Shown here: positions 4,743 to 56,487 of the stretch, piece by piece
Layout of the letters: each line of letters begins with the position of its first letter
How positions within the stretch are numbered: the stretch's first letter is position 1
From: Eubacteriales bacterium
Lineage (GTDB): Bacteria > Bacillota > Clostridia > Lachnospirales > Lachnospiraceae
Direction: 5' to 3'
Assembly (NCBI GenBank): GCA_030536995.1
Contig: JAUNOY010000004.1
Coordinates: 62,001 to 126,000 of the forward strand
Length of the DNA stretch: 64,000 nucleotides
The notes under the pieces: generated by a model
The model's database searches: none
What the model saw: the letters and a program-made list of their open reading frames with translations, nothing else
What the model was told of the DNA's origin: nothing
Position numbers and translations under genes: made by a program

Positions 4743-4776
4743 TGAGATAGTATATTTCGTAAAAAATTTTCTGTTC

Positions 4777-4806
4777 TGGACAAAAAAAGCCAGATAATGC
4801 TATAAT
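4777..4806 (+). promoter_or_regulatory. Possible promoter of the citrate synthase gene
   Basis: TGGACA (4777-4782), 18-base spacer, TATAAT (4801-4806). A second TATAAT follows at 4810-4815. This would give a leader of about 120 bases in which no riboswitch was recognised. Confidence 0.45.
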
Positions 4807-4930
4807 AGCTATAATGTGGTAAAAAATATGATCAAATATAACTGAAAATCAAAAAACAGTCAGGATCAGAGAATGAAGGAGGAAACATTACTGGTAAAAC
4901 TGAGGGGAACTAAAAATTGAAAGGGGAAAC

Positions 4931-12051: not shown

Positions 12052-12397
12052 GGGCTTGTACTGGTTTCGACGGGGGTTTTGAAGTTGGGGAAGCCATCCG
12101 CAGACTCCTGGACTGCGTACCAACCGGGAACTAAATATAAACGCAGACGAAAAGTTAGCGTTAGCAGCCTAATTGCTGCTCGTCAGCCCTAGTGCACTCA
12201 CACATTAGGAATCTGGCGTCGACTATGTGAGAAACCTTGCCGGATAAGCTTTGCTCCGGTAGATGTATTCATGAAGCTACTGAAGTGACAAGCCTGTCGG
12301 TGGGCGTGTTGCAGAGGGAATGTTAAAACAGCGACTGTGATGGGAGATGCCTCAAGGGATAGGCTTTCGGACGCGGGTTCAATTCCCGCCAGGTCCA
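12052..12397 (+). ncRNA. ssrA: Transfer-messenger RNA (tmRNA)
   Basis: About 346 bases. The 5' end GGGCTTG (12052-12058) pairs with the 3' CAGGTCC (12390-12396), allowing G-U pairs, to form the acceptor stem. The conserved CTGGTTTCGACGGGG follows the 5' strand. The T arm GCGGGTTCAATTCCCGC precedes the 3' strand. The reading frame begins at GCA 12143, with TATAAAC just upstream as in other resume sites, and reads A-D-E-K-L-A-L-A-A before TAA at 12170-12172. The 3' CCA is not encoded (the sequence continues A-CTT). It rescues stalled ribosomes and tags nascent chains for proteolysis. Confidence 0.96.
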
Positions 12398-12398
12398 C

Positions 12399-12431
12399 TT
12401 AAAAAGTGTCGTATTTACGGCACTTTTTTTA
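12399..12431 (+). terminator. Terminator after ssrA
   Basis: AAAAAGTGTCGTA pairs with TACGGCACTTTTT across a tiny loop and is followed by a run of T. Confidence 0.85.
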
Positions 12432-39803: not shown

Positions 39804-40618
39804 TGAAACAATTCAAGCATCTGATCAAACCTTACCTTGTATGGGCGTTTGTGATCATCGTTATCCCGCTGATCTTGATTGCACTTTACGCTTTTACAGA
39901 AGAAGGAAATGAGGTACTGACTCTTGCCTTTACCTGGAAAAACTTTGCGAAATTCCTGGAGACAACCTACTTAAGCGTTATCTTGAAATCCTTTAAACTG
40001 GGTATCATCACAACGGTGATCTGTCTTGTTGCAGGTTATCCTCTTGCTTTCATTATCTCCAAATTTTCAGAGAAGGTACAGAGCCTCCTGATTCTTCTTG
40101 TGACGATTCCCATGTGGATCAATATGCTGCTCCGTACCTATGCGTGGATGAACCTTTTATCAGACAACGGAATCATCAATTACCTTCTGGGTATAGTGGG
40201 GATTTCCCCGGTTTCCATGATGTATACGGATTTTTCCGTAATCGTGGGCCTGGTGTGTAACTTTATGCCGTTTATGATCATTCCTATCCATACTTCCTTA
40301 AGCAAGATGGATAAATCTTATATTGAGGCGGCTTATGATCTGGGGGCAAATAAGCTCCAGACCTTTACGAGAGTTATCTGGAAGCTTTCTATTCCGGGTG
40401 TCCTCAATGGAATTATGATGGTATTCCTCCTTTCCATTTCTACGTTTGTTATTCCGAAGCTTCTCGGCGGCGGACAGTATATGCTTATCGGTAACCTGAT
40501 TGAATCTCAGTTTATCTCTGTGGGAGACTGGAACTTCGGAAGTGCCATTTCCCTGATACTGGCAGTGCTCATTCTGATTTTTATGAGCTTTATGAAAAAA
40601 ATGGACAAAGATGAATAA
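39803..40618 (+). CDS. potB: ABC transporter permease, PotB-like (system 2)
   Basis: 271-residue permease. The ATG at 39803 overlaps the ATPase stop by one base (TGATG) and has GGGAG 8 bases upstream. An in-frame GTG at 39782 is less likely. Six hydrophobic segments are visible, with the EAA loop YIEAAYDLGANKLQTFTRVIWKL. It is followed 14 bases later by the fused permease/binding protein. Confidence 0.9.
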   Translation: MKQFKHLIKPYLVWAFVIIVIPLILIALYAFTEEGNEVLTLAFTWKNFAKFLETTYLSVILKSFKLGIITTVICLVAGYPLAFIISKFSEKVQSLLILLVTIPMWINMLLRTYAWMNLLSDNGIINYLLGIVGISPVSMMYTDFSVIVGLVCNFMPFMIIPIHTSLSKMDKSYIEAAYDLGANKLQTFTRVIWKLSIPGVLNGIMMVFLLSISTFVIPKLLGGGQYMLIGNLIESQFISVGDWNFGSAISLILAVLILIFMSFMKKMDKDE

Positions 40619-40632
40619 GGAGCAGGGGGAAG

Positions 40633-42480
40633 ATGAAAAGTAAAAAGAGTATTTTTTCAAGATTTTATGTATTGCTTTGCCTTGCATTTTTTTACCTGCC
40701 GATTCTGGTAACGATGATTTTTTCTTTCAACTCATCGAAATCTCTGACCAGATTTACAGGCTTTTCTCTTCGCTGGTACGGCGAGCTGTTAAAGAATGTA
40801 GAGGTAAGCAAAGCAGTTTACGTATCCGTTACAGTTGCCATCCTTGCAACGGTGATTTCCACAGTGCTTGGAACCATAACAGCTATCGGTCTTTCCAAGT
40901 CAAAGAAAGTGGTAAAGGAGCTGCTTTTAAATATAAACAACATTCCGATTCTGAATCCGGAGATTGTGACAGCCATCGGTCTGATGCTGCTGTTTTCCTC
41001 ACTGGGCTTCAGAAAAGGATATATGACAATGCTTCTGGCGCATATTGCTTTTTGTACGCCTTATGTGATCACAAGCGTATACCCGAAAGTAAGAGGACTT
41101 GACCCGAATATGGCAAATGCGGCCATGGACCTTGGTGCGACACCGTATCAGGCGCTGACCAAAGTTATTGTGCCGATGATCAAAGAGGGTATTTTTGCAG
41201 GCGCACTTCTTGCCTTCACCATGTCCTTTGACGATTTCGTTATTTCTTACTTCGTGTCAGGAAATGGTGTGAAAAATATCTCCATTGTTGTTTATAACAT
41301 GACGAAGAGAATCAATCCGACCATCAATGCATTGTCAACCATTGTAATAGTTGTCATTATACTGGTACTTGCCCTGTCCAATCTTATGCCTGTGTTTAAG
41401 AAGTTTACAACAGGCAGAATCAACAGGAAAACAAGAAAAATCCTCTCCCTGGTTCTGGTGGCTGCAGTAGCTGTGGGACTTGTGAAGTGGGGCTATGTGG
41501 CACAGGGAAAACATATGTTGAAGGTTTACAATGCGGGAGAGTATATTGATGCCGACCTGTTGGAGGAATTTGAAAAAGAATATGACTGTACAGTGGTATA
41601 TGAGACATTTGAATCCAATGAGATGATGTACACCAAGCTTTCCAGTGGTGAAACTTATGATGTCCTGGTTCCTTCCGACTATATGATCGAACGTCTGATC
41701 AAGGAAGAATATCTTCAGCATCTTGACTGGGATCTCATTCCGAATAAAAAGAATCTTAAGGATGAGGTAGTCAACAGAAGCTATGACCCGGGAAATCGCT
41801 ATTCCTGTCCGTATTTCTACGGAACAGTGGGAATCCTGTACGATACCACAGTGGTTGACGAGGCTGACTTAAAGGATGGCTGGAATCTTCTGGCAAATCC
41901 GAAATATAAGGGAAATCTTTATATGTACGATTCCGAGAGAGATTCCTTTATGATTGCCTTGAAGGCTCTGGGTTATTCCATGAATACTACCAGCGAGAAG
42001 GAAATCGAGGAAGCGTACCAGTGGCTGATCCATCAAAGAGACAGCATGGAGCCGATTTATGCAGGAGACGACGTAATCGACAATATGATTTCCGGAAACA
42101 AGGCTCTGGCAGTGGTTTATTCCGGAGACGCGTCCTACATTATCAGCGAAAATCCGAATCTTGCGTACTATACGCCTGAGGAGGGAACCAACCTGTGGTA
42201 CGATGCTATGGTCATTACAAAGGACTGCAGTGAGACAGAACTTGCCCATGAATTTATTAATTTTATGATAAGTGAGAAATCTGCTCTTTCCAATACGGAA
42301 GAAGTAGGGTATACTTCTACTGTAAAGAGCGCTTTTGAGACAATGCGTGACGGAGAATATGCGGGAGTCGGCTCCTACATACCGGAAACGGATAATCCAA
42401 ACAGCGAGATCTTTGCCTACCAGAAACCGCAGATTAAGCAGTTGTTTGCGGAGCTCTGGACAAAGGTAAAAGCAAAGTAA
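40633..42480 (+). CDS. Fused ABC permease and substrate-binding protein (PotC-PotD type, system 2)
   Basis: 615 residues. Residues 1-265 are a PotC-like permease (FYLPILVTMIFSFNSSKS, FTGFSLRWYGELL, EAA-type loop MANAAMDLGATPYQALTKVI). A further membrane segment (about 271-290, ILSLVLVAAVAVGLVKW) leads into a PotD-like binding domain (about 298-615: LKVYNAGEYIDADLLEEFEKEY, LVPSDYMIERLI, DSERDSFMIALKALGYSMN). The binding domain is thus tethered to the outer face, replacing a lipoprotein. Such fusions are known in Firmicutes. The frame is continuous, with no sign of an assembly join. Confidence 0.92.
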   Translation: MKSKKSIFSRFYVLLCLAFFYLPILVTMIFSFNSSKSLTRFTGFSLRWYGELLKNVEVSKAVYVSVTVAILATVISTVLGTITAIGLSKSKKVVKELLLNINNIPILNPEIVTAIGLMLLFSSLGFRKGYMTMLLAHIAFCTPYVITSVYPKVRGLDPNMANAAMDLGATPYQALTKVIVPMIKEGIFAGALLAFTMSFDDFVISYFVSGNGVKNISIVVYNMTKRINPTINALSTIVIVVIILVLALSNLMPVFKKFTTGRINRKTRKILSLVLVAAVAVGLVKWGYVAQGKHMLKVYNAGEYIDADLLEEFEKEYDCTVVYETFESNEMMYTKLSSGETYDVLVPSDYMIERLIKEEYLQHLDWDLIPNKKNLKDEVVNRSYDPGNRYSCPYFYGTVGILYDTTVVDEADLKDGWNLLANPKYKGNLYMYDSERDSFMIALKALGYSMNTTSEKEIEEAYQWLIHQRDSMEPIYAGDDVIDNMISGNKALAVVYSGDASYIISENPNLAYYTPEEGTNLWYDAMVITKDCSETELAHEFINFMISEKSALSNTEEVGYTSTVKSAFETMRDGEYAGVGSYIPETDNPNSEIFAYQKPQIKQLFAELWTKVKAK

Positions 42481-42517
42481 CTGACGACATCATGGTTTTG
42501 CAGAAAGGAGTTTTGCA

Positions 42518-43555
42518 ATGAAGATGAAAAGAGCGGCAGCAGTGCTGATGTGCGCTGCACTTGCAGGAAGCGTTCTGACAGGATTCAAGGACGCGGGAGA
42601 CGACAAGGAACTGGTACTTTTTACCTGGCAGGGAATGTTCCCTCAGGAAGTCCTTGACGGGTTTGAAGAAGAGACAGGAGTTAAGGTCATTTACTCCAAT
42701 TTTGATACAGATGAGACAATGTTTGAGAAGCTTTCCATGGCGAAGGGCGGAGACTATGATTTTGTAATCGCAGATGATTACATTCTGGAAACCGTTATCG
42801 CAAACGGTCTTGCCCAGGAGCTGGATAAAGAATCTCTGGAAAATATCGGAAATATCAATCCTTTATACCAGGGACAGTTCTACGATCCGGAAGATGCCTA
42901 TACAGTGCCGTACGGAGCAGGAATCCCTCTCATCGTATATGATCCGGAGCAGGTTGATCTTGATATCAAGGGATACAGTGATCTCTGGGATGAATCTCTG
43001 GAAGACAGTATTGCGCTGGTGGGAAATTACCGTGTGATCAATGGCATTACCCAGCTGTCTCTCGGAAAGAGTATGAATGAAGAGGATGTAGATGTCATTA
43101 AGGAGACCGGAAAGAAGCTTCAGGAGCTTGCTCCCAATGTGCGTATGATTCAGGATGATAATACCCAGAATGCACTTTTAAACGGAGAGGCAAGCGTGGC
43201 CCTTCTTTATACTTCTCAGGTGACTGCAGCTCTTGCAGAAAATCCTGATCTTAAGGTAGTATATCCGGAAGAGGGTCTTGGATTCGGAATTATGGGAGCT
43301 TTTATTCCGAGCCAGGCGCCGAATAAAGACGCAGCATATTCCTTCCTGGATTATCTGATGCAGCCGGAGATTGCCGCACAGTGCACCAACTACATCGGTT
43401 ACTACAGCACAAATAAAGCAGCCGATGAATTTGTAAATGAAAATCTCGTAGTTCCTGACGATGTGACCAAAGGCGAAATCGTACAGAACGTAAGTCAGGA
43501 AGCCGAAGAACAGTATAACAAAAACTGGACAGAATTTAAGGCGGCCTGCGACTGA
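42518..43555 (+). CDS. potD: Spermidine/putrescine-type extracellular solute-binding protein (probably for system 1)
   Basis: 345 residues with a signal peptide (basic MKMKR, then AAAVLMCAALAGSVLTG) and a PotD-like periplasmic-binding fold (ELVLFTWQGMFPQEVLDGFEEETG, FVIADDYILETVI). The lipobox position reads L-T-G-F, so the expected lipid-modified Cys is Phe23 (codon TTC at 42584-42586). Because system 2 carries its own fused binding domain, this protein most likely serves system 1. AGAAAGGAG precedes the ATG. Confidence 0.88.
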   Translation: MKMKRAAAVLMCAALAGSVLTGFKDAGDDKELVLFTWQGMFPQEVLDGFEEETGVKVIYSNFDTDETMFEKLSMAKGGDYDFVIADDYILETVIANGLAQELDKESLENIGNINPLYQGQFYDPEDAYTVPYGAGIPLIVYDPEQVDLDIKGYSDLWDESLEDSIALVGNYRVINGITQLSLGKSMNEEDVDVIKETGKKLQELAPNVRMIQDDNTQNALLNGEASVALLYTSQVTAALAENPDLKVVYPEEGLGFGIMGAFIPSQAPNKDAAYSFLDYLMQPEIAAQCTNYIGYYSTNKAADEFVNENLVVPDDVTKGEIVQNVSQEAEEQYNKNWTEFKAACD

Positions 43556-43587
43556 TATCTGACAGCAAAACTACATAGAAAAAAACA

Positions 43588-43620
43588 AACAGCCAAATCC
43601 GAATCAGGATTTGGCTGTAA
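43588..43620 (+). terminator. Hairpin after the pot cluster, weak terminator
   Basis: CAGCCAAATCC (43590-43600) and GGATTTGGCTG (43607-43617) form a perfect 11-bp stem, but only TAATAAC follows. It may stabilise or attenuate the transcript rather than end it fully. Confidence 0.55.
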
Positions 43621-43638
43621 TAACAAGGGGGATAAAAG

Positions 43639-45279
43639 ATGGAAATATATAAAGGTTCCATAGCCTTCTCAGGAATCGCCATCGGCAGAATACTGTATTA
43701 TCAGAGAAATGAACATCGCATACGTCAGTATGTAGTGAGTAATGTAAAAACAGAACTGGAAATTTTTGGAGAAGCTTGTCAGAAAGTGGAAGAAGAACTG
43801 GATGCCCGCTATAAAGAGTATGCAGCGTCCGCAGGGGCGGAAGCCGATGTTTTTCTCACTCAGAAAAAAATCCTGAACAGTAAAAGCTTCAAAAAAGCCA
43901 TAGAAAGCATTATTCAAAATGAGAAAGTCAATGCTGCATATGCGGTTATGACAACAAAAGATGAAATCACATCAACCTTCCGGAATCTGGAGGAAGAAGT
44001 GATCAAGGAGAGGATTGCGGGAATCCGTCTTCTGTCAGATCGCCTGATCGGAGCTCTGGGGGGGATTTCTCCGAAAATTGATCTGGGAGATGAACCTGTT
44101 ATTCTTGTCACGGAAAATATTTTTCCAACGGAGCTGATGGAAATGGACAAAGAAAAACTTCTTGGAATTGTTACCCATCAGGGCTCCGATATTTCTCACG
44201 CCTCCATTATGGCGAAAAGCATGAATCTGCCCATGCTTGTGGGAATTGAAGCGGATATGGACTGGGAAGGGGAGTATGCTATCATAGACGGCTACAATGG
44301 TACTTTTTACATTGACCCAGACGAGGAACTCCTCAGAGAATACGACATTCGCAGACAGGCAGATTTAAAGGAAAGGGAAGAACTTCTTGAGCTTCGAAGT
44401 ATGCCGGATGTGACTCGTGACGGCAAAAAAGTAAATATTTATGCAAATATCGGAAATATGGATGATTTGAGCAGTGTTCTTTATTACAGCGCTGCAGGAA
44501 TCGGACTTTTAAGAAGTGAATTTCAATACCTTGGGCGCGAGAATTACCCAAGAGAAAACGAACTTTTCCTTGCTTACCGCAAAATAGCCGAAACAATGGG
44601 AGACCACATGGCAGTTATCCGCACGGCAGACCTTGGAGCGGATAAGCAGGCAGAATATCTGGATATTCCGGATGAAGCCAATCCGATTATGGGAAACAGG
44701 GGAATCCGCCTTTGTCTTGACCGGAAAAGAATGTTTAAAGCGCAGCTTCGTGCGATTTTACGTGCAAGCGCTTACGGAAATCTGGCAATGATGTATCCGA
44801 TGATCTCCTCAGAGGAGGAAATGGATGAAATTGAGAAACTGATAGAAGAAGTGAAAGCGGGGCTGAAAGAGAAAAAAATTCCTTACAAAGATATAAAGAC
44901 GGGAATTATGGTGGAGACGCCCGCTGCTGTCATGATCAGTCGGGAACTGGCAAAAAGAGTAGATTTCCTGAGCCTCGGAACAAATGATCTGACACAATAT
45001 ACACTTGCCATGGACAGACAGAATCCGCTTCTTCGCAGTAAATACAATGACCATCATCCGGCAGTGATGAAAATGATTGAGATGGTAGTGAATGCAGGGC
45101 ATCAGGAAGGCTGTCCCGTCTATATCTGCGGTGAACTGGCGGCGGATACGCATCTGACGAAAAAATTTCTGCAGATGGGTGTAGACGGATTGTCTGTAGT
45201 GCCTGCCAGCATTCTTCCGGTGCGTAAGGCAGTCCGATGTACGGATTTAAGATATCAGGAGAACAAAGATGAAAAGTAA
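43639..45279 (+). CDS. ptsI: Phosphoenolpyruvate-protein phosphotransferase (PTS enzyme I)
   Basis: 546 residues. It transfers phosphate from PEP to HPr. The N-terminal HPr-binding helical domain is followed by the active-site His187 in SDISHASIMAKS. The PEP-binding barrel follows, with GIGLLRSEFQYL, IRTADLGADKQ, NPIMGNRGIRLC, MVETPAAVMIS, SLGTNDLTQYTLAMDR and the catalytic Cys in ICGELAADTHL. It is slightly shorter than classic enzyme I (about 570) and no ptsH gene is adjacent, so it may be a paralogue. It overlaps the following DUF362 gene by 11 bases. Confidence 0.88.
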   Translation: MEIYKGSIAFSGIAIGRILYYQRNEHRIRQYVVSNVKTELEIFGEACQKVEEELDARYKEYAASAGAEADVFLTQKKILNSKSFKKAIESIIQNEKVNAAYAVMTTKDEITSTFRNLEEEVIKERIAGIRLLSDRLIGALGGISPKIDLGDEPVILVTENIFPTELMEMDKEKLLGIVTHQGSDISHASIMAKSMNLPMLVGIEADMDWEGEYAIIDGYNGTFYIDPDEELLREYDIRRQADLKEREELLELRSMPDVTRDGKKVNIYANIGNMDDLSSVLYYSAAGIGLLRSEFQYLGRENYPRENELFLAYRKIAETMGDHMAVIRTADLGADKQAEYLDIPDEANPIMGNRGIRLCLDRKRMFKAQLRAILRASAYGNLAMMYPMISSEEEMDEIEKLIEEVKAGLKEKKIPYKDIKTGIMVETPAAVMISRELAKRVDFLSLGTNDLTQYTLAMDRQNPLLRSKYNDHHPAVMKMIEMVVNAGHQEGCPVYICGELAADTHLTKKFLQMGVDGLSVVPASILPVRKAVRCTDLRYQENKDEK

Positions 45280-46402
45280 AGTGATTCTTCTCCCTTGTGA
45301 GGAGTATGAAGAAGAAAATATATATACGCTGCTGAAAAAAGCGCTGGAGCTTCTCGGCGGGATAGAAAGCCTGATAAAGAAAGAAGAAAAAATTCTTTTG
45401 AAACCTAATCTTTTGAAAAGAGCAGAGGTAGAGAAGGCAGTTATTACCCATCCTGTAGTTGTAGGCGCTTTTGCGCGGATTCTCAGGGAAAAAGGCTATC
45501 AAAACCTGGTGCTTGCAGATTCCTGCGGTCACGGTACCACGAAGGCTGTCATCAAAGGTACGGGAATGGATACCTATCTTGAGAAATATGAGATTCCTGC
45601 GATTGATTATTCGCAGGGAATCTCTGTAAAGTATCCGCAGGGAGTACAGGCAAAGGAATTTGTGATTCCGAAAGAACTTCTTGAGTCGGACTGTGTGATT
45701 TCTCTGTGTAAGATGAAGACCCATGCTCTGGAACGTGTGACAGGGGCTGTGAAGAATAGTTATGGCTTTATTTACGGGCTTCACAAGGCAAAGGGGCATA
45801 CGTTGTATCCCAGTGCAGACAGCTTTGCGCGGATGCTTGTGGATCTCAATAAATATGTTGCGCCCAGGCTGTACATCATGGATGGAATCGTGGCAATGGA
45901 GGGGAACGGGCCGGGCTCCGGCGATCCCACTCCTATGAAAGTAATGCTTGTCTCAAAAGACCCGGTTGCCCTTGACAGCGTATTTTGCCGTCTTGTGCAT
46001 TTGAAGCCGGAGATGGTGCCTACCAATTATCACGGAGAGAAGATGGGACTTGGCACATGGAAAGAAGAGGAAATCGAGCTTCTGACACCGGAAGGGGAAA
46101 TATCCATGACCGAGGCTGTAAGCCGGTACGGAAACCCTTCTTTCAATGTTGACCGGACAGAAGTACGTCACAATATCTGGACCAAGATGGCAGGCGCTCT
46201 GAAACTCTTCCAGAAGAAGCCCTACATTGATGAGGCGCGCTGTATCCGCTGCGGTATTTGCGTCAAAAGCTGCCCTGTCCCCGGAAAAGCCGTAGACTTC
46301 CAAAAAGGTCGTGACAAGCCTCCCGTATACGACTACAGGAAATGTATCCGCTGTTTCTGTTGTCAGGAAATGTGCCCGGAGAAGGCAATAAAAGTCAAAT
46401 AA
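45269..46402 (+). CDS. DUF362 domain protein with C-terminal 2[4Fe-4S] ferredoxin domain
   Basis: 377 residues. The DUF362 region (about 1-290) includes KILLKPNLLKRAEVEKAVITHPVVV, CKMKTHALERVTGAVKNSYG and DGIVAMEGNGPGSGDP. The C-terminal part has two cluster motifs, CIRCGICVKSCPVPG and CIRCFCCQEMCPEKA. The function of this family is not established; it is common in anaerobes. The start overlaps the enzyme I gene by 11 bases, indicating coupled translation, but no functional link is obvious. Confidence 0.85.
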   Translation: MKSKVILLPCEEYEEENIYTLLKKALELLGGIESLIKKEEKILLKPNLLKRAEVEKAVITHPVVVGAFARILREKGYQNLVLADSCGHGTTKAVIKGTGMDTYLEKYEIPAIDYSQGISVKYPQGVQAKEFVIPKELLESDCVISLCKMKTHALERVTGAVKNSYGFIYGLHKAKGHTLYPSADSFARMLVDLNKYVAPRLYIMDGIVAMEGNGPGSGDPTPMKVMLVSKDPVALDSVFCRLVHLKPEMVPTNYHGEKMGLGTWKEEEIELLTPEGEISMTEAVSRYGNPSFNVDRTEVRHNIWTKMAGALKLFQKKPYIDEARCIRCGICVKSCPVPGKAVDFQKGRDKPPVYDYRKCIRCFCCQEMCPEKAIKVK

Positions 46403-46414
46403 AAAAGATGAAGG

Positions 46415-46443
46415 TTGTATTCTGAAGTAGGATATGCTACGAT
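46415..46443 (+). promoter_or_regulatory. Possible promoter of the ART-SecB cassette
   Basis: TTGTAT (46415-46420), 17-base spacer, TACGAT (46438-46443). A second AT-rich candidate exists further down near 46455-46475. It is weak by eye, but a promoter is expected because the cassette begins a new AT-rich block. Confidence 0.35.
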
Positions 46444-46537
46444 AAATATATATTTTGAATGTAAATATTAAAATGTGGTTGGTTTATAGGATGTGATTTT
46501 GCATAGTGGCTTAAGCATCTGGAATAAGAGTGAAAAA

Positions 46538-47125
46538 ATGAAAGAGATAGGATATCATGGAACCTGTTTAAGGCATCGGGAAGATATAGAGAAAAACGGT
46601 TTGGATCCTGACAAATGTAGTTATCGTACAGATCATTGGCTGGGACAGGGAGTATATTTTTTTGACGATTATGAAAAAGCATTATGGTGGGCATCGACGA
46701 TATCTTTGCAAAATAAGAGCTGTGGAGGCATAATTTTTGAAGCTGAGATAGAAGCGTCAGATAAAGAAGTATTGGATTTGGATGATAATAAACAGTTGGA
46801 TTGTTTTATGACAGAAACCTTACAAACTCTTCAGGAAATAAAGGAGCAGTGTTCTGGACAAATGCCAATATTTGATGACGGGAAGATGCGTGCTGTTTTT
46901 TTCGATTATTATAAGATACGCAAGGGGATATCCGTAATCATAGGAACGTTTCAAAAAACTTGTGCGGGCTATACGTGTAAAAGAAGTCCCGCTGAAAGAG
47001 AAAATCAACAAAAAATAATGGATATAATTGGAATTAAATTTAAAGAAAGACAAATTTGTGTATCCCAAAAAGAGTGTATCAAATCAACGAAATTGATATA
47101 TAATGAGCAGGAAGAGGTGATATGA
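46538..47125 (+). CDS. Putative ADP-ribosyltransferase-fold toxin, first gene of a toxin-antitoxin-chaperone cassette
   Basis: 195 residues from the ATG at 46538. A GTG at 46493 would add 15 residues but has a poor ribosome site. The N-terminus reads GYHGT with H7, then LGQGVYFFDDYEKALWWAS with G38-V-Y40-F and A48-xx-W-A. This His...Tyr spacing is the pattern of PARP/DUF3990-like ADP-ribosyltransferases (H-Y-x group). The third catalytic residue could not be assigned. The following genes encode a small protein and a SecB-like chaperone, matching the CmdT-CmdA-CmdC order known from E. coli, where CmdT is an mRNA ADP-ribosyltransferase. The toxin role here is inference. The gene is AT-richer than its neighbours. 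Confidence 0.6.
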   Translation: MKEIGYHGTCLRHREDIEKNGLDPDKCSYRTDHWLGQGVYFFDDYEKALWWASTISLQNKSCGGIIFEAEIEASDKEVLDLDDNKQLDCFMTETLQTLQEIKEQCSGQMPIFDDGKMRAVFFDYYKIRKGISVIIGTFQKTCAGYTCKRSPAERENQQKIMDIIGIKFKERQICVSQKECIKSTKLIYNEQEEVI

Positions 47126-47361
47126 TGTTTGATAAGGACTTATTTCTTTTGCTATGCGAAAAATATGATGTTGAACTGAGTGAGATAAATGATGCCCCGG
47201 TAATAAAAAATGGCTTGAATGTTCACGAGATTACAGATGAAGATGTAGTCCGTGCTTTTGAATTTCATCAACCATATTTTGAATATTTCGGTAATAGAAT
47301 TAATACAGAAACTATGATGTGTGAGTTTTCTTTATTGGAAGATTATGCAGAGGCATGTTAG
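47122..47361 (+). CDS. Small acidic protein, putative antitoxin of the ART-SecB cassette
   Basis: 79 residues with no recognised family. It is acidic and contains FDKDLFLLLCEKYDVELSEI, an ITDEDVVRAFEFHQPYFEYFG segment, and a C-terminus rich in acidic and hydrophobic residues (LLEDYAEAC). No helix-turn-helix or ribbon-helix-helix is apparent. The ATG overlaps the upstream TGA by 4 bases (an alternative ATG follows at 47125), with GAAGAGG before it. Its position between an ART-like gene and a SecB-like gene suggests the antitoxin of a chaperone-controlled toxin-antitoxin module; this is inference from order only. Confidence 0.6.
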   Translation: MMFDKDLFLLLCEKYDVELSEINDAPVIKNGLNVHEITDEDVVRAFEFHQPYFEYFGNRINTETMMCEFSLLEDYAEAC

Positions 47362-47370
47362 GAGAAATGT

Positions 47371-47763
47371 ATGAAAGTGAAGGCTAAATATGAAAGCTCT
47401 CTTGTGTTGGAGAAAATGGAAATTACGGAGAGTACTTTCAGAAAAAAAGATGGTGATTTAGGCGAGTTAGAACTGAATGTTGAAGTTGAACACAGTATGC
47501 GCATACTTACAGAAGATGTTTTCGAGGTGTTTCTGGTTACAATAGTGTCTGACGAGGAAGAAAAGGTTTTTATCAGGGTGAAGGGAAGAGCGATTTTTGT
47601 TACGCAACAGCAAAATGTGGATATTTTAAAGAAAAATATGATAGCGATCATGTTTCCGTATATAAGGAGCTATATTTCCATAGTAACAACCCAGCCGGGA
47701 ATGGAGCCTGTTGTGTTGCCGGCTATGAATATTGCTGCAATGATTAATGAAGAAAATAAATAA
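47371..47763 (+). CDS. SecB-like chaperone
   Basis: 130 residues. The C-terminal half has the SecB pattern: a beta-rich core, then VDILKKNMIAIMFPYIRSYI, SIVTTQPGMEPVVLPAMNIAAMI. This aligns with the FPYAREC-xx-xx-PxxNLAPVNFDALF region of SecB (FPY at about residue 95, the NI-AAMI end near 120). Firmicutes normally lack SecB as an export chaperone, and solitary SecB-like genes are typically parts of toxin-antitoxin-chaperone systems that protect the antitoxin. It follows the small gene by 9 bases with TAGGAG before the ATG. It ends at a terminator, closing the three-gene unit. Confidence 0.8.
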   Translation: MKVKAKYESSLVLEKMEITESTFRKKDGDLGELELNVEVEHSMRILTEDVFEVFLVTIVSDEEEKVFIRVKGRAIFVTQQQNVDILKKNMIAIMFPYIRSYISIVTTQPGMEPVVLPAMNIAAMINEENK

Positions 47764-47768
47764 AGAAT

Positions 47769-47822
47769 AAGTGCCATCTCTGTACTACATTTTGAAATAA
47801 TGTACAGTGATGGCACTTTTAG
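47769..47822. terminator. Terminator after the ART-SecB cassette
   Basis: AAGTGCCATC-TCTGTAC pairs with GTACAGTGATGGCACTT (one mismatch) and is followed by TTAG. It also serves the convergent methyltransferase gene. Confidence 0.8.
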
Positions 47823-47838
47823 ATAATATGAGAAATGA

Positions 47839-48711
47839 TTAAAGTGCCAATAGCTTCGCAGTCTCCTCAATATACTCCGGCGTTGTCCCGCAGCAGCCGC
47901 CTATAACAGAGGCGCCGTTCTCCACCAGAACCTTCATATGCTTCGCAAATTCTTTGGCAGACATACTGTACTGCGCATTGCCATACTCATCAATAAGAGG
48001 CATACCTGCATTGGGCTTGGCGACAACCGGAATAGACACACTTTCTTTGATGTTGCGAATGACGGAAACAAGCTGATCCGGGCCGACGGAACAGTTGATG
48101 CCGACGGCAGCGGCTCCAGCGCTTTCCAGAGCAACGGCAGCTTCCACCGCATTTCCGCCGCTGAAAATACTTCCGTCAGCCTCCACTGTCATGGTGCAAA
48201 GAACAGGAAGAGAGCAGACGGAACCGGCAGCGTCAAGAGCAGCCAGAGTTTCCTCGATATTAATCATAGTTTCTGCTGCAATAAAATCCACACCGGCCTC
48301 TTCCAGAAGCTGAATCTGCTCGCAGTAAACCTCAAATGCATCCTCATAAGTCAAATCTCCGGCAGGCGCCATCATTTTTCCGGTTGTTGTAATATCGCCT
48401 GCCACCAGAATATCCGCCCCCACAGCCTCTCTGGAAAGGGAGACAAGAGAATGATTCAGTTCCCGGATCTGTCCTTCAAGATTGTGAAGGCGGAGATTGA
48501 AACGATTGCCGCCGAAAGTAGGGGCGTAAACAGCGCGGCTGCCCGCACGAACATAAGCGCGCTGAAGGTTAAGAAAAATATCCCTGTTCTCCAGAATCCA
48601 TTTCTCAGTGCAAATCCCCCGCGGCATACCCGCAGCCATAAGATTAGAACCTGTTGCTCCGTCAAGGAGAAGAATCTTCTGTGTCAGTGTCTGAAATTGT
48701 TCTCTAGTCAT
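47839..48711 (-). CDS. Homocysteine S-methyltransferase family protein
   Basis: 290-residue TIM-barrel protein of the MmuM/MetH-N family. It transfers a methyl group to homocysteine, for example from S-methylmethionine. The N-terminal LLLDGATGSNLMAAG and TNxG-like region, and the zinc cysteines in GINCSVGPDQ and GGCCGTTPEYI, are present. The frame extends 18 codons upstream, but the ATG at 48711 is chosen because AGGAGGAC precedes it. The methyl donor is unknown. It is convergent with the SecB-like cassette. Confidence 0.88.
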   Translation of the reverse strand: MTREQFQTLTQKILLLDGATGSNLMAAGMPRGICTEKWILENRDIFLNLQRAYVRAGSRAVYAPTFGGNRFNLRLHNLEGQIRELNHSLVSLSREAVGADILVAGDITTTGKMMAPAGDLTYEDAFEVYCEQIQLLEEAGVDFIAAETMINIEETLAALDAAGSVCSLPVLCTMTVEADGSIFSGGNAVEAAVALESAGAAAVGINCSVGPDQLVSVIRNIKESVSIPVVAKPNAGMPLIDEYGNAQYSMSAKEFAKHMKVLVENGASVIGGCCGTTPEYIEETAKLLAL

Positions 48712-48750
48712 GAAAGTCCTCCTGAAATAAAAAATAGTAAGTTCTAAGCT

Positions 48751-48992
48751 GCCCCTTCCGCGCAAGGGGGCTATTGTTAAAAGTAAATACGAGGGCCGTC
48801 TCAGCAGACCTCGATCAAGAACGCTTCAGCGTTCTTGCTGCGAAATGCGCGTTGCAAAGCAACATTTTCTTCTGCGCATTTCTGCAATCTTCGCCGGAGG
48901 CGTTTATCTCAGTCGGAGATTGCACTCCCACGGAGACTAATTTGTTATAACTCACCACTTTAGAAGTGGGAGTCTTCTCCGACTAAGATAAA
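48751..48992. repeat. Dense inverted-repeat element, possible relic of an IS200/IS605-type end
   Basis: About 240 bases with four nested hairpins: CCCCTT/AAGGGG (48753-48770); a perfect CAAGAACGCT/AGCGTTCTTG (48816-48837); GAAATGCGC/GCGCATTTC enclosing GTTGC/GCAAC (48842-48882); and a long palindrome TTTATCTCAGTCGGAGA/TCTCCGACTAAGATAAA (48903-48992) enclosing ACTCCCAC/GTGGGAGT. No transposase frame is present. The GTGGGAGTC hairpin resembles ends of IS200/IS605 elements; that identity is inference. Its right edge supplies the last codons of the neighbouring epimerase gene. Confidence 0.55.
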
Positions 48993-49850
48993 ATATTCTT
49001 TGTGAAACTCTTCTTTGCTTTTCAGCACATTAATATTCTCTTTCTCGGCCAGAGTTCCCTCAAATCCGCAGTCGTCACACCGTCCCATCCAAGGCTCCAG
49101 ACAAACGAAAGGCGCACCCGGAACAGACCAGATTCCGAAGTTCGGAAAGCCCTTACAGGAAAGAGAAACATATGGTGTACCGTCAGGGAAAAGAATAGAA
49201 GCCTTTTCAATCTGCCCGTCGACCACAAGAGCGTCCTTATCAAACATATGCTCGTCAATTCTGCGGCAGCCGTCTGTAAGAGAAAGGGTATGAGGTTCAT
49301 CCGGTCTGGCTGTGCCGTGATTGAGATCGACCAGATAATAAGTCAGAGAATCCTTTCCCTCAAAAGAAAGAAGATACTCGCTCTGTCTGCCCTGTCCGTC
49401 AGCCGGAACGTTGAAAGCAGGATGGCCGCCGATGGTGAAATACATGGTTTCTTCGCCCGGATTGGTCACCTTCCAGGAAACAGTTACAGTACGGCCCTTC
49501 AAGGTATGTGTAATCTCCAACTGGAACTCATAAGGGTATTTTTCGAGAGTTTCCGGAGAAGATTTCAGCACATGGGTGATGGAATCCTCGGTTCTGCAGG
49601 TACAGACAAACTCACTGTCCCGGGCAAAGCCGTGCTGTTTGGAAGGAAATTCTCTGCCGAGAGTCCGGAAATGATCCAGATAATGGCGTCCCACATTTGG
49701 GAAAAGAACCGGCGCATGGCGTTTCCAGAAAGCCGGATCTGCCTGCCAGATAACTTCCCTGTTTTTCTCCTTATCAAAAATACTGCACAATTCTGCGCCG
49801 TGATCGTTTACAGAAACCTGAAGAAACTCATTTTCTATGGTATGTGTCAT
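48960..49850 (-). CDS. Aldose 1-epimerase family protein
   Basis: 296 residues of the galactose mutarotase-like fold (YeaD/LacX-type). It shows VNDHGAELCSIFDKE, the FPNVGRHYLD loop, a catalytic His in FTIGGHPAFNVP and the C-terminal CLEPWMGRCDDCGFEGTL with the catalytic Glu. The start at 49850 is set by AAGGAGG; the frame is open 12 codons further upstream. The last 10 or so residues (ILVGEDSHF) are encoded inside the adjacent inverted-repeat element, so the natural C-terminus was probably replaced. The sugar substrate is unknown. Confidence 0.87.
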   Translation of the reverse strand: MTHTIENEFLQVSVNDHGAELCSIFDKEKNREVIWQADPAFWKRHAPVLFPNVGRHYLDHFRTLGREFPSKQHGFARDSEFVCTCRTEDSITHVLKSSPETLEKYPYEFQLEITHTLKGRTVTVSWKVTNPGEETMYFTIGGHPAFNVPADGQGRQSEYLLSFEGKDSLTYYLVDLNHGTARPDEPHTLSLTDGCRRIDEHMFDKDALVVDGQIEKASILFPDGTPYVSLSCKGFPNFGIWSVPGAPFVCLEPWMGRCDDCGFEGTLAEKENINVLKSKEEFHKEYFILVGEDSHF

Positions 49851-49996
49851 GACTAAATCCTCCTTACAATACGATATAAAGACCATTGTTGGTCAGATTC
49901 CGCAGACAAACCTGCTTTTTCTATATGTTATTATAGCATAATCGACAAAAATTTACCAGTTTTTTTATAAGATATGTGCAAAATAACAATTAAGCG

Positions 49997-50025
49997 TTGA
50001 CTTGAAAGCGCTTTTTTGTTACAAT
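49997..50025 (+). promoter_or_regulatory. Promoter of the PPi-PFK gene with embedded cre-like site
   Basis: TTGACT (49997-50002), 17-base spacer, TACAAT (50020-50025). The spacer begins with TGAAAGCGCTTTTT (50003-50016), which matches the first 12 positions of the CcpA cre consensus (TGWAANCGNTNWCA) and contains the palindrome AAAGCGCTTT. Catabolite control of this glycolytic gene is inferred. Confidence 0.55.
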
Positions 50026-50091
50026 TTACCTTAATGAGGCGAGCGTCAGCGAGAAAAGAGACGTGATGCGCAATGTTAGGAGGACAATTAA

Positions 50092-51345
50092 ATGGCTAAA
50101 AAGAGAAATATCATCGTAGGACAGTCCGGCGGACCAACCGCAGTAATCAACTCAAGTCTGGCAGGCGTATACAAGAATGCCATTGAAAGAGGTTTTGACA
50201 AAGTATACGGAATGAGAAACGGAATTCAGGGCTTATTGGATGAGCAGTATATCGACTTATCTACCCAGATTCATTCCGAACTGGACATTGAGCTTTTAAA
50301 GAGAACTCCATCTGCATTTTTAGGTTCCTGCCGTTATAAATTACCGGAAATCCATGAAAACAGAGAAATCTATGAGAAACTTTTCGGAATTTTAAAGAAA
50401 CTGGATATTGATACCCTGATCTACATCGGTGGAAACGACTCTATGGATACGATCAAGAAATTATCCGACTACGCGATTCTTACAGGACAGACTCAGAAAT
50501 TCATCGGCTGTCCGAAGACCATTGATAACGACCTGGCATTAACAGACCATACACCGGGCTTTGGAAGCGCTGCCAAATATATTGCAGCATCCACAAAAGA
50601 AGTAATCCGTGATGCAGAAGGCCTTACCTATAAGAAAAATATGATTACCATCATGGAAATTATGGGACGTAACGCAGGATGGCTTACAGGGGCTGCAGCG
50701 CTTGCGAAAACAGAAGACTGCGACGGACCGGATCTCATCTACCTTCCGGAAGTGGCATTCGATATTGACAAATTCCTTGTAAAAGTGAAAGACCTTCTTT
50801 CCAAAAAAGCATCTGTTGTGATTGCAGTATCTGAAGGAATCAAACTTGCAGACGGCAGATATGTATGTGAACTTGGAAATACAGGCGACTATGTAGACGC
50901 ATTCGGACATAAACAGCTTCAGGGTACAGCGACCTACCTTGCGAACTTCCTGGCAGCAGAGTGCGGATGTAAAACAAGAGCCGTTGAGCTTTCCACCTTA
51001 CAGAGATGCGCATCCCACATGGCTTCCAGAACAGATATAGAAGAAGCGTTCATGGTTGGCGGCGCTGCAGTGAAGGCTGCAGACGAAGGAGACACAGGCA
51101 AGATGGTTGTAATCGACCGTGTATCCGATGATCCATACATGTCAAAAACAGGTATCTACGATGTACACCGCATCGCAAACGAAGAGAAACTTGTTCCGAG
51201 AAACTGGATGAACAGAGATGCAACCTATGTGACAGAAGACTTCGTAGACTATGTGAAACCGCTGATTCAGGGTGATTACCAGCCGATTATGGTAAACGGT
51301 CTTCCGAGACATCTGGTACTCAACACAGGCAAAAAGAGAAGATAA
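50092..51345 (+). CDS. pfp: 6-phosphofructokinase, probably pyrophosphate-dependent
   Basis: 417-residue PFK-fold enzyme. The N-terminal GQSGGPTAVINSS and the catalytic PKTIDNDLALTDH loop are clear. The two residues that separate PPi- from ATP-dependent enzymes both point to PPi: the GGDGS motif reads GGNDS with D116 (Gly in ATP-PFK), and the PGTIDND motif reads PKTIDND with K142. Established knowledge links this Asp/Lys pair to pyrophosphate as phosphoryl donor. Directly downstream is ppdK, whose reaction also involves PPi. A TTAGGAGG site precedes the ATG. Confidence 0.88.
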   Translation: MAKKRNIIVGQSGGPTAVINSSLAGVYKNAIERGFDKVYGMRNGIQGLLDEQYIDLSTQIHSELDIELLKRTPSAFLGSCRYKLPEIHENREIYEKLFGILKKLDIDTLIYIGGNDSMDTIKKLSDYAILTGQTQKFIGCPKTIDNDLALTDHTPGFGSAAKYIAASTKEVIRDAEGLTYKKNMITIMEIMGRNAGWLTGAAALAKTEDCDGPDLIYLPEVAFDIDKFLVKVKDLLSKKASVVIAVSEGIKLADGRYVCELGNTGDYVDAFGHKQLQGTATYLANFLAAECGCKTRAVELSTLQRCASHMASRTDIEEAFMVGGAAVKAADEGDTGKMVVIDRVSDDPYMSKTGIYDVHRIANEEKLVPRNWMNRDATYVTEDFVDYVKPLIQGDYQPIMVNGLPRHLVLNTGKKRR

Positions 51346-51360
51346 GCATAAAAACAGAAA

Positions 51361-51406
51361 CAAAATCTCCCGTGCTGATTTTACATCGGTATGGGGGATT
51401 TTGTTG
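51361..51406 (+). terminator. Terminator after the PPi-PFK gene
   Basis: CAAAATCTCCCGTGCTGA and TCGGTATGGGGGATTTTG pair over 18 positions with several G-U pairs, then TTGC. Confidence 0.7.
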
Positions 51407-51501
51407 CAGAGAAACAAATGCGGAAATCCGACTTAATCAAGGTGTAAAGAAAAATTTTATACAAAATTACAAAAGTTTTTCACCTTTTTGACAGAATGAC
51501 C

Positions 51502-51530
51502 TTGACTAATGACATTAAAATCTATAAAAT
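51502..51530 (+). promoter_or_regulatory. Probable promoter of ppdK
   Basis: TTGACT (51502-51507), 17-base spacer, TAAAAT (51525-51530). A further TTGACA lies at 51488-51493. Confidence 0.55.
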
Positions 51531-51597
51531 GATTATGTGCGTATAGAAAACATATTTTGTGTTTTTAAAGAACAATAATTTAGGAGGAAAATGTAAA

Positions 51598-54222
51598 ATG
51601 GCAAAATGGGTTTACATGTTCACAGAAGGTGACGCTACAATGAGAAACCTTCTGGGTGGTAAAGGCGCTAACCTTGCTGAGATGACAAACCTTGGTCTTC
51701 CTGTACCGCAGGGCTTCACAATCACAACTGAAGCTTGTACTCAGTACTATGAGGACGGAAGAAAGATCAACGATGAGATCATGGCTCAGATCATGGAAGC
51801 AATTACCAAAATGGAAGGAGTTACCGGTAAAAAATTCGGTGACAAAGAAAATCCTCTGCTCGTTTCCGTTCGTTCCGGTGCTAGAGCATCCATGCCTGGT
51901 ATGATGGACACTATCCTTAACCTTGGTCTTAACGAAGAAGTTGTTCATACATTAGCAGAAAAATCCGGTAATGCTCGTTGGGCATGGGACTGCTACAGAA
52001 GATTTATCCAGATGTACTCTGACGTAGTTATGGAAGTTGGTAAAAAATACTTCGAAGAGCTCATCGACAAGATGAAAGAAGAAAAAGGTGTTAAGCAGGA
52101 CGTTGAACTTACTGCAGAAGACCTTGAAACACTTGCTAACCAGTTTAAAGCAGAATACAAAGAAAAAATCGGCGAAGACTTCCCATCTGATCCTAAGGAA
52201 CAGCTTATGGGCGCTGTTAAAGCCGTATTCCGTTCCTGGGACAACCCACGTGCGAACGTATACCGTCGTGACAACGATATCCCATATTCCTGGGGTACAG
52301 CTGTTAACGTACAGATGATGGCATTCGGTAACATGGGTGATGACTGTGGTACAGGTGTTGCGTTTACTCGTGACCCAGCTACAGGTGAGAATGGTCTGTT
52401 CGGTGAGTTCCTTACAAACGCTCAGGGTGAGGACGTAGTTGCCGGTGTTCGTACACCAATGCACATCTCCGAGATGGAGCAGAAATTCCCGGAAGCATTC
52501 GCTCAGTTTAAAGACGTTTGCAGCAGACTTGAGAAACACTACAGAGATATGCAGGATATGGAGTTCACTGTAGAGCACGGTAAACTTTATATGCTTCAGA
52601 CACGTAACGGTAAGAGAACAGCTCAGGCTGCTCTTAAGATCGCTTGTGACCTTGTAGATGAAGGCATGAGAACAGAAGAAGAAGCTGTTGCAATGATCGA
52701 CCCACGTAACCTTGACACTCTGCTTCACCCACAGTTCGACGCTGCTGCACTGAAAGCTGCAGAGCCGGCTGCAAGAGCACTTGGCGCTTCTCCGGGAGCT
52801 GCATGCGGTAAAATCGTATTCACAGCTGAGGACGCTAAAGCTTGGGCTGAAAGAGGAGAGAAAGTAGTTCTCGTTCGTCTTGAGACATCCCCAGAGGATA
52901 TCGAAGGTATGAAAGCTGCTCAGGGTATCCTGACAGTTCGTGGTGGTATGACATCTCATGCAGCTGTAGTAGCTCGTGGTATGGGTACATGCTGCGTATC
53001 CGGTTGTGGCGAGATCGCAATGGATGAAGAAAACAAGAAATTTACACTTGCTGGTAAAGAATATCATGAAGGAGACTTCCTCTCCCTTGATGGTTCTACA
53101 GGATGCATCTACGACGGAATCATTCCTACAGTAGACGCTAGCATCGCTGGTGAGTTCGGAAGAATCATGGGATGGGCTGACAAGTTCAGAACTCTTAAAG
53201 TTCGTACAAACGCTGATACTCCTGCAGATGCTAAAAAAGCTCGTGAGCTTGGCGCTGAAGGTATCGGTCTTTGCCGTACAGAGCATATGTTCTTCGAAGG
53301 CAACAGAATCGACGCATTCCGTGAGATGATCTGCTCCGAAACTGTAGAAGAGAGAGAAGCAGCTCTTGAGAAGATCCTTCCAGAGCAGCAGGGAGACTTC
53401 GAGGCACTTTACGAAGCACTTGAAGGTAACCCGGTTACTATCCGTTTCCTGGATCCGCCGCTTCATGAGTTCGTTCCAACAACAGAAGAAGATATTAAGA
53501 AACTTGCTGATTCTCAGGGCAAAACTGTAGAGCAGATCAAGACAATCATCGATTCCTTACATGAGTTCAACCCAATGATGGGACATCGTGGATGCCGTCT
53601 TGCTGTAACATACCCAGAGATCGCTAAAATGCAGACAAAAGCAGTTATCCGTGCAGCTATCAATGTTAAGAAAGCACACGCTGACTGGAATGTTTGCCCA
53701 GAGATCATGATCCCATTAGTAGGCGACGTAAAAGAGCTTAAATACGTTAAGAAAGTTGTTGTTGAGACAGCAGACGCTGAGATCGCAGCAGCTGGCGTAG
53801 AGCTTAAATACGAAGTTGGTACTATGATCGAGATCCCACGTGCAGCTCTTACAGCTGACGATATCGCAAAAGAGGCAGACTTCTTCTGCTTCGGTACAAA
53901 CGACCTTACACAGATGACATTCGGTTTCTCCCGTGATGACGCTGGTAAGTTCCTTAACGCATACTATGACGCTAAGATCTTCGAGAACGATCCATTCGCT
54001 AAACTCGACCAGACAGGCGTTGGTAAGTTAATGGATATGGCAATCAAACTCGGTAAACCGGTTAATCCAAACCTGCACATCGGTATCTGCGGTGAGCACG
54101 GCGGTGACCCAACATCCGTAGAATTCTGCCATAAGATCGGTCTGGACTACGTTTCCTGTTCTCCATTCCGTGTTCCGATCGCTCGTCTTGCAGCAGCACA
54201 GGCAGCTATCAACAACAAATAA
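51598..54222 (+). CDS. ppdK: Pyruvate, phosphate dikinase
   Basis: 874 residues. It interconverts PEP, AMP and PPi with pyruvate, ATP and phosphate. The nucleotide-binding N-terminal domain (LLGGKGANLAEMTNLGLPVPQGFTI, SVRSGARASMPGMMDTILN), the phosphohistidine domain (GGMTSHAAVVARGMGTCCVSG) and the PEP barrel (IGLCRTEHMFFE, MIEIPRAALTADDIA, FGTNDLTQMTFGFSRDD, ICGEHGGDPTSVEFC) are complete. The start at 51598 has AGGAGGA upstream. Codon use is strongly biased (for example GTAAC/GCTCGT types), consistent with very high expression. Together with PPi-PFK it fits PPi-based glycolysis. Confidence 0.97.
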   Translation: MAKWVYMFTEGDATMRNLLGGKGANLAEMTNLGLPVPQGFTITTEACTQYYEDGRKINDEIMAQIMEAITKMEGVTGKKFGDKENPLLVSVRSGARASMPGMMDTILNLGLNEEVVHTLAEKSGNARWAWDCYRRFIQMYSDVVMEVGKKYFEELIDKMKEEKGVKQDVELTAEDLETLANQFKAEYKEKIGEDFPSDPKEQLMGAVKAVFRSWDNPRANVYRRDNDIPYSWGTAVNVQMMAFGNMGDDCGTGVAFTRDPATGENGLFGEFLTNAQGEDVVAGVRTPMHISEMEQKFPEAFAQFKDVCSRLEKHYRDMQDMEFTVEHGKLYMLQTRNGKRTAQAALKIACDLVDEGMRTEEEAVAMIDPRNLDTLLHPQFDAAALKAAEPAARALGASPGAACGKIVFTAEDAKAWAERGEKVVLVRLETSPEDIEGMKAAQGILTVRGGMTSHAAVVARGMGTCCVSGCGEIAMDEENKKFTLAGKEYHEGDFLSLDGSTGCIYDGIIPTVDASIAGEFGRIMGWADKFRTLKVRTNADTPADAKKARELGAEGIGLCRTEHMFFEGNRIDAFREMICSETVEEREAALEKILPEQQGDFEALYEALEGNPVTIRFLDPPLHEFVPTTEEDIKKLADSQGKTVEQIKTIIDSLHEFNPMMGHRGCRLAVTYPEIAKMQTKAVIRAAINVKKAHADWNVCPEIMIPLVGDVKELKYVKKVVVETADAEIAAAGVELKYEVGTMIEIPRAALTADDIAKEADFFCFGTNDLTQMTFGFSRDDAGKFLNAYYDAKIFENDPFAKLDQTGVGKLMDMAIKLGKPVNPNLHIGICGEHGGDPTSVEFCHKIGLDYVSCSPFRVPIARLAAAQAAINNK

Positions 54223-55890: not shown

Positions 55891-55965
55891 AACAGGACGA
55901 AATGGCGAAGCATGTCCTTTTTTAAAGGAAATCATTTTGATTTAAGGAAAGAACAGACAGGAACG

Positions 55966-56487
55966 ATGAGAGAGAAATTCATGTGGTACGTAATCCAGGT
56001 TCGCACAGGCACAGAGGAAAAAATCTGTATTCAGTGCAAGAAGACAATACCGAAATCTATTATGGAGCATTGTTTCATACCTCATTATGAAGAAAAAAGA
56101 AAAATTCAGGGCAAATGGAAAACCCTGCAGCATGTGCTGTTTCCGGGTTATGTATTTGTCATTACAAATGAGATAGACAAACTCCGGGACAAACTGAAAA
56201 GTGTTATAGGAATGACGCGGCTCATTGGAAGCGGCGATGATGTGGTTCCCTTAACCGATCAGGAAATTGCGCTGTTGCTAAGCTTCGGCGGGGATAAACA
56301 ACTGATTGAAATGTCGGAAGGTATTATTATAGGAGACAGGATTATTATCAACAGCGGACCTCTCAAGGGCAAAGAAGGATATATCCGGAAAATAAACCGT
56401 CACAAACGGAAAGCCTGGCTGGAAATACCGTTTTTCGGTTCCATGCAGACGGTACAGGTGGGATTGGAGATTGTGGAAAAAGGATAA
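55966..56487 (+). CDS. loaP: NusG-paralogue antiterminator, LoaP type
   Basis: 173 residues from ATG 55966; an ATG at 55981 would give MWYVIQVRTG, the usual LoaP N-terminus, and an ATG at 55912 is also in frame. The N-terminal NGN domain (WYVIQVRTGTEEKI, HVLFPGYVFVIT) and the C-terminal KOW domain (IIINSGPLKGKEGYIRKINRHKRKAWLEI) match specialised NusG paralogues. Established knowledge: LoaP prevents early termination in long polysaccharide and antibiotic operons of Firmicutes. Placement near the start of this locus fits that role. Confidence 0.88.
   Translation: MREKFMWYVIQVRTGTEEKICIQCKKTIPKSIMEHCFIPHYEEKRKIQGKWKTLQHVLFPGYVFVITNEIDKLRDKLKSVIGMTRLIGSGDDVVPLTDQEIALLLSFGGDKQLIEMSEGIIIGDRIIINSGPLKGKEGYIRKINRHKRKAWLEIPFFGSMQTVQVGLEIVEKG

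Follow-up and report, generated by a model that had tools for sequence, protein, structure and literature searches.

What are three short, closely packed genes doing between two core genes of a gut Lachnospiraceae bacterium? The genes lie in a 64,000-nucleotide stretch of an Eubacteriales genome (GenBank assembly GCA_030536995.1, contig JAUNOY010000004.1, positions 62,001 to 126,000), referred to here as the window and numbered from its first letter. A preliminary description had read them as a CmdTAC-like toxin-antitoxin-chaperone (TAC) cassette, and our analysis supports that reading: positions 46538-47763 very probably form a CmdTAC-type operon that works as a chaperone-gated, phage-triggered switch. 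Three intact genes lie on the same strand in the order toxin, antitoxin, SecB-like chaperone, and the tight packing, the acidic 79-residue middle protein and the 4-nucleotide overlap (ATGA) between the first two open reading frames (ORFs) are all as first described. PADLOC models for PD-T4-9, a system renamed CmdTAC (PMC9519451), match both toxin and chaperone. The published calling rule places a SecB-like CmdC homologue within two genes of CmdT (PMC11618068); here the CmdC homologue is the second gene downstream of the CmdT homologue. The parts of the system are as follows.

46538..47125, + strand: CmdT-like toxin, predicted ADP-ribosyltransferase (ART) of 195 amino acids, with H7, Y40 and Q172.
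47122..47361, + strand: CmdA-like antitoxin, 79 amino acids, acidic; N-terminal half folded and tail disordered in the model.
47347..47358, + strand: putative ClpX-type C-terminal degradation signal, the codons for A-E-A-C, the final four antitoxin residues.
47371..47763, + strand: CmdC or SecB-like chaperone, 130 amino acids, assigned from PADLOC, Pfam SecB and a family profile compared with solved SecB structures.

The three-part composition, an ART-fold toxin, a short antitoxin and a SecB-like chaperone, rests on sequence and models; from the E. coli system we infer phage defence, an RNA target and the trigger. In the proposed cycle, the N-terminal half of the antitoxin would keep the toxin inactive, and the antitoxin tail would serve both as a chaperone-binding stretch and as a ClpX-type degradation signal that is covered while the chaperone is bound. 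Upon infection, the chaperone would be pulled off by a freshly synthesized phage protein, which in E. coli is the major capsid protein, and ClpXP would then degrade the antitoxin. Once free, the toxin would ADP-ribosylate RNA of the cell and halt translation before any phage is produced.

Is the first protein an ART toxin? PADLOC model PDLC04068 (PD-T4-9_A) matches it over nearly its whole length (E = 1.5e-9), and PDLC04069 matches with E = 3.1e-4. The preliminary description had proposed an ART-like protein and asked for structure prediction and structural comparison; the AlphaFold2 model (predicted local distance difference test, pLDDT, 90.9) returns structural matches with the ART fold. Aligned family members share an H-Y-Q triad, with the histidine and tyrosine present in 42/42 and the glutamine in 38/42, and model and alignment together give the ART fold and HY-[E,D,Q] triad by which CmdTAC toxins are recognized. 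The narrower label 'PARP/DUF3990-like' holds better in its first half, as 17 of the 42 members match PARP and five match DUF3990 weakly. The window's toxin itself falls below the threshold of the Pfam PARP catalytic domain (18.3 bits, cut-off 26.7; E = 0.0017). Searching the PDB with the single toxin sequence returned nothing useful, and the family profile returned weak matches (best E = 0.009). The reading frame stays open 5′ as far as a GTG at 46493. On the strength of the modelled fold and the profile matches, we conclude that the toxin is an ADP-ribosyltransferase-fold protein of the CmdT family.

Its substrate is a separate matter. Substrates of similarly folded ART toxins are nicotinamide adenine dinucleotide, protein, DNA or RNA. 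The window's toxin is just 9–20% identical to the 50 structures listed in the structural comparison, a list from which a missing family is not thereby excluded, and the target of CmdT is known for the E. coli enzyme only. The same switch might accordingly act on protein, transfer RNA or DNA rather than messenger RNA, with a similar outcome by different chemistry. We consider this unlikely, though worth keeping in view; the nearly full-length match to the CmdT family profile and the shared H-Y-[EDQ] triad speak against it.

The middle gene is recognized by position and form. The antitoxin has no family match above cut-off in PADLOC, Pfam or NCBIfam, and none of 36 antitoxins has a PD-T4-9 match in PADLOC; CmdA has been treated as too variable for system calling (PMC11618068, PMC9519451). 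An ORF between toxin and chaperone is conserved in the clade. The antitoxin model has low overall confidence (mean pLDDT 71.6, predicted template modelling score 0.38), with pLDDT ∼84–87 at residues 1–40, 74 at 41–50 and ∼50 beyond, and shows residues 5–46 as a pair of helices plus a hairpin. As modelled, the protein has the N-terminal helices and long unstructured C-terminus expected of CmdA. In the window's clade, every one of the 15 distinct antitoxins, this one included, ends in -AC; outside it, the nearest relative is L076, with 41% toxin identity and an antitoxin ending in -AA. The ssrA tag of the host, encoded by a transfer-messenger RNA within the window at 12052-12400, is ADEKLALAA, that is, an LAA end. 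E. coli CmdA, too, reportedly ends in LAA and is lost in a ClpP-dependent manner, as published. A cysteine-ended ClpX signal on the antitoxin is plausible by analogy, because Streptococcus mutans ClpX accepts various hydrophobic C-terminal tripeptides (PMC10782952).

Evidence for the chaperone is more direct. It matches PADLOC PD-T4-9_C (PDLC04072, E = 5.5e-18) and passes the curated Pfam SecB cut-off (PF02556, 34.4 bits; cut-off 26). A PDB search with the single sequence gave nothing useful; a profile built from 37 members of the family finds solved SecB structures (8.5e-13). The protein is thereby SecB-like, as initially proposed. It could in principle be a general export SecB in a coincidental neighbourhood, and both Pfam and NCBIfam name it SecB. 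Its best NCBIfam export-SecB equivalog score is 34 bits, far below every cut-off of the seven models listed (102.8 to 277), and in all same-clade relatives examined with an intact toxin it lies behind the same two genes while the surroundings vary. SecB matches occur in four of 14 control genomes, including the archaeon Methanocaldococcus jannaschii; among the 14, Bacillus subtilis, Lactococcus lactis and Corynebacterium glutamicum lack one. An export SecB is very improbable, and we rejected a solitary one on the equivalog cut-offs and the SecB matches across genomes. The preliminary argument that monoderm Firmicutes usually lack an export SecB fits, as this chaperone is the sole SecB match in the host genome. 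The same description had called for a survey of the three-gene neighbourhood and had named the lack of an ART fold, of a SecB fold or of co-occurrence as grounds for abandoning the reading; the genes do co-occur in other genomes, and none of the three grounds arose.

If the antitoxin tail is what the chaperone guards, do tail and chaperone gene travel together? A C-terminus of the form [AV][ACS] is found in 53 of 55 distinct antitoxins encoded with a chaperone gene and an intact toxin versus 0 of 14 small proteins encoded behind a toxin that has no chaperone gene downstream (Fisher p = 8e-13), and in 7 of 433 ORFs of at least 200 residues from the same loci. Clustering at 60% toxin identity leaves 34/36 versus 0/12 (p = 1e-9). 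The rule was derived from loci L012–L087, which are part of the data tested; in the later loci L118–L142 alone, it is true for nine of 11 antitoxins with a chaperone and none of five without. L121 (EAT) and L125 (AVG) have a chaperone yet break the rule. On the toxin tree, chaperone presence changes at least three times on well-supported branches, and seven times by parsimony.

These counts come from 101 loci, which gave 103 toxin rows; L001–L011, L028 and L088–L117 (repeats or other genes) had been omitted beforehand, and L143–L146 came later. We dropped 15 rows with an antitoxin equal to that of an earlier row, another eight in which the toxin was broken or short, and another seven in which no ORF followed the toxin. 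Four more, lying ≤1200 bases from a sequence end, were set apart; two match the C-terminal rule and two do not. A row counts as 'without chaperone' if the 900 bases that follow the toxin contain, on its strand, no match to the chaperone profile at E 1e-3. L043 is counted as chaperone-free by this definition, yet its viral contig has a SecB-like ORF at 4497-4973 on the - strand, ∼1 kb upstream of the toxin, and the next ORF in L053, L139, L141 and L142 may be no antitoxin. Removing these five doubtful rows leaves 0/9.

The clearest single chaperone-free case is L087 (Streptococcus sp. 121), whose toxin shares 39% identity with the toxin of satellite phage Javan248 and whose 10 kb of available sequence contain no chaperone match. 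Behind its toxin, at 5457-5926, are two tandem paralogous 69-residue antitoxin-like proteins; they show homology to streptococcal CmdA in its N-terminal part (37% identity over 43 residues and 32% over 56) and stop before the tail region. An N-terminal half common to chaperone-free proteins and CmdA is supported for L087 only; a profile comparison of five chaperone-free small proteins with 15 antitoxins of the window's clade found no significant homology (probability 2). Separately, a Companilactobacillus locus (L082, 5538-6160) has, behind a CmdT-like toxin that lacks a chaperone, a run of three small ORFs that resemble one another.

On balance, we lean towards a view in which chaperone dependence is a detachable module of the CmdT family: a ClpX-ended disordered tail would have been gained or lost repeatedly together with a SecB-like gene, and the Lachnospiraceae branch would have shifted its signal from -AA to -AC. 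If true, one and the same toxin would operate in two settings, in a simple two-gene pair and in a sensor gated by the chaperone. The tail mechanism was established in other toxin-antitoxin systems by engineered tail transplants (PMC5105189); the tail-chaperone link makes it readable and testable in natural variants of one family.

How widespread is the cassette? Counting the window's own genome throughout, toxin relatives occur in 10 of 299 genomes of the family, six of 64 of the genus (one of these truncated), 17 of 398 drawn from the phylum and 10 of 391 from the class. Scanning named genomes yielded 27 loci, a set biased to close relatives by its query of nine closer toxins; the closest 15, one of them partial, have 60–76% toxin identity and are labelled as Lachnospiraceae genera, Clostridia, Clostridiaceae or Eubacterium. 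Full-length relatives at this identity keep the three genes in identical order with nearly equal spacing, and the cassette is therefore more than a chance grouping. All three genes stand together in every same-clade relative examined that has an intact toxin. Blautia sp. Marseille-P3087 carries a decayed copy (L075, 5001-5381), in which the toxin is cut at 126 residues and neither antitoxin nor chaperone was found. Viral contigs gave no toxin relative when scanned with one protein; an alignment scan placed relatives on 32 viral contigs, and others are present in the Streptococcus satellite phages Javan245 and Javan248. On an Enterococcus faecium plasmid with phage genes (L016, 3980-5431), CmdTAC-like genes lie directly 3′ of an amidase (lysin-type) gene with an integrase nearby; this block possibly consists of superinfection-control genes.

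This distribution bears on whether the cassette is a defence system at all. A chaperone-controlled toxin-antitoxin could instead serve stress response, mobile-DNA maintenance or competition between elements, and for SecB-controlled HigBA1 of Mycobacterium tuberculosis a role as stress-responsive sentinel of protein export has been under discussion (PMC4257090). Two observations weigh against phage defence: the 10 neighbouring proteins include no defence genes, so that no defence island is seen to that extent, and relatives in phages, satellite phages and plasmids would equally fit addiction or superinfection control. Conversely, the homologous tested system protects E. coli from T-even phages (PMC11618068), and the window's cassette is chromosomal and free-standing, at sites unrelated to those of its relatives, with no evident element to stabilize. 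We judge a non-defence role improbable and retain the phage-triggered switch.

How the cassette reached its site can be read from its flanks, both outside the system:

45269..46402, + strand: left flank, DUF362 / 4Fe-4S (ferredoxin) protein by Pfam; conserved left edge of the empty site.
47839..48765, - strand: right flank, homocysteine S-methyltransferase-like protein by Pfam; conserved right edge of the empty site.

Among 20 other genomes of the genus with the DUF362 gene, 17 have the flanks as direct convergent neighbours, 4–388 nucleotides apart and with no cassette; one has a different orientation, and in two the right neighbour was not found inside the locus. One genome, G307, has an empty site plus the cassette at another location. 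Across 17 Lachnospiraceae-type loci, an adjacent ORF is shared solely by the near-identical pair L070/L073. Some families recur at varying distances: phosphofructokinase in the window, L062 and L071, and others in L061/L068, L062/L068 and L065/L067. Little flank was available on one side of L061 and L066, and no mobile element carrying the window's cassette was seen among the 17 loci. Because of the empty sites, G307 and the lack of shared flanks, we conclude that the cassette moves as a bare ∼1.25 kb unit.

A travelling unit of this kind probably carries its own promoter, and candidate signals lie at both ends:

46403..46537, + strand: leader carrying a sigma-A type promoter, probable but weakened, as judged by eye in the relatives' alignment.
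47769..47818, strand not assigned: terminator-like hairpin between cmdC and the convergent neighbour, -24.7 kcal/mol, z -5.93.

Most of 13 relatives' leaders contain, by eye, a TTG-starting hexamer and a TATACT-like hexamer ∼17 nucleotides apart; the window's copy deviates from this pattern. The claim that the block has its 'own terminator' stands in part: a strong hairpin follows directly behind the chaperone gene, and we call it terminator-like because its U-run is short and a consensus terminator scan found none. The block is AT-richer, as described, with 33–37% G+C in three 700-base windows within it and 38 to 50% in those fully outside it over 40001-54000.

Two further features of the window lie away from the cassette. 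A 615-residue ORF at 40633-42480 combines a BPD_transp_1 permease domain with an SBP_bac_8 solute-binding domain, a fusion that we liken to PotC-PotD, and is followed by a separate solute-binding-like protein (42518-43555). A NusG-domain protein (55912-56487) is encoded 5′ of a sugar-transferase-like gene and 3′ of a CpsB/CapC gene, presumably resembling the specialized NusG paralogues of polysaccharide operons.

What, then, is new here? The CmdTAC kind is known, and CmdTAC homologues in Gram-positive species have been stated in print (PMC11618068). An earlier screen reported, in a sentence that does not name CmdTAC, that over half of its 21 systems abounded in Firmicutes and in three further phyla as well (PMC9519451). 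The suggestion of a 'possibly undescribed Firmicute branch' thus needs narrowing to the Lachnospiraceae/Blautia branch, on which we found no paper in the open-access literature. The window adds a new member that is well supported and whose antitoxin has a distinctive end: an operon of CmdTAC type in gut Firmicutes, compact and intact, whose site stands empty in close relatives. Two points go beyond the published accounts found, the -AC end despite the host's LAA ssrA tag and the family-wide tail-chaperone link, of which we found no report in the same literature (preprints not covered).

Among known systems, the entry titles of the NatRT and MbcTA pairs mention toxin and antitoxin only, and their chemistry is presumably other than that of the cassette. 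MqsRAC of E. coli has TAC architecture and anti-phage activity, and is alike in that architecture, with a toxin and antitoxin unrelated to those described here (PMC9519451). In the M. tuberculosis TAC system (HigB1-HigA1-Rv1957), a SecB-like chaperone likewise guards the antitoxin, whose C-terminal stretch is both chaperone site and ClpX degron; HigA1 ends in Val-Ala, and its tail is transferable (PMC8165232, PMC5105189). It differs in having HigA1 as its antitoxin and a ribonuclease as its toxin (PMC9098466). The chaperone-free CmdT relatives (such as L015, L022, L077, L078, L087 and L136) share the toxin family and a small gene behind it; no SecB-like gene was found in their locus sequences, and the small protein lacks a ClpX-type C-terminus. 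The closest system is CmdTAC (PD-T4-9) of E. coli ECOR22. The cassette departs from it in its Gram-positive host, its bare placement between core genes, and an antitoxin that matches no family model and ends in -AC rather than LAA, with trigger and RNA target taken by analogy; the two have in common the gene order, an ART toxin with H-Y-[EDQ], an antitoxin that is short and has a disordered tail, and a chaperone resembling SecB.
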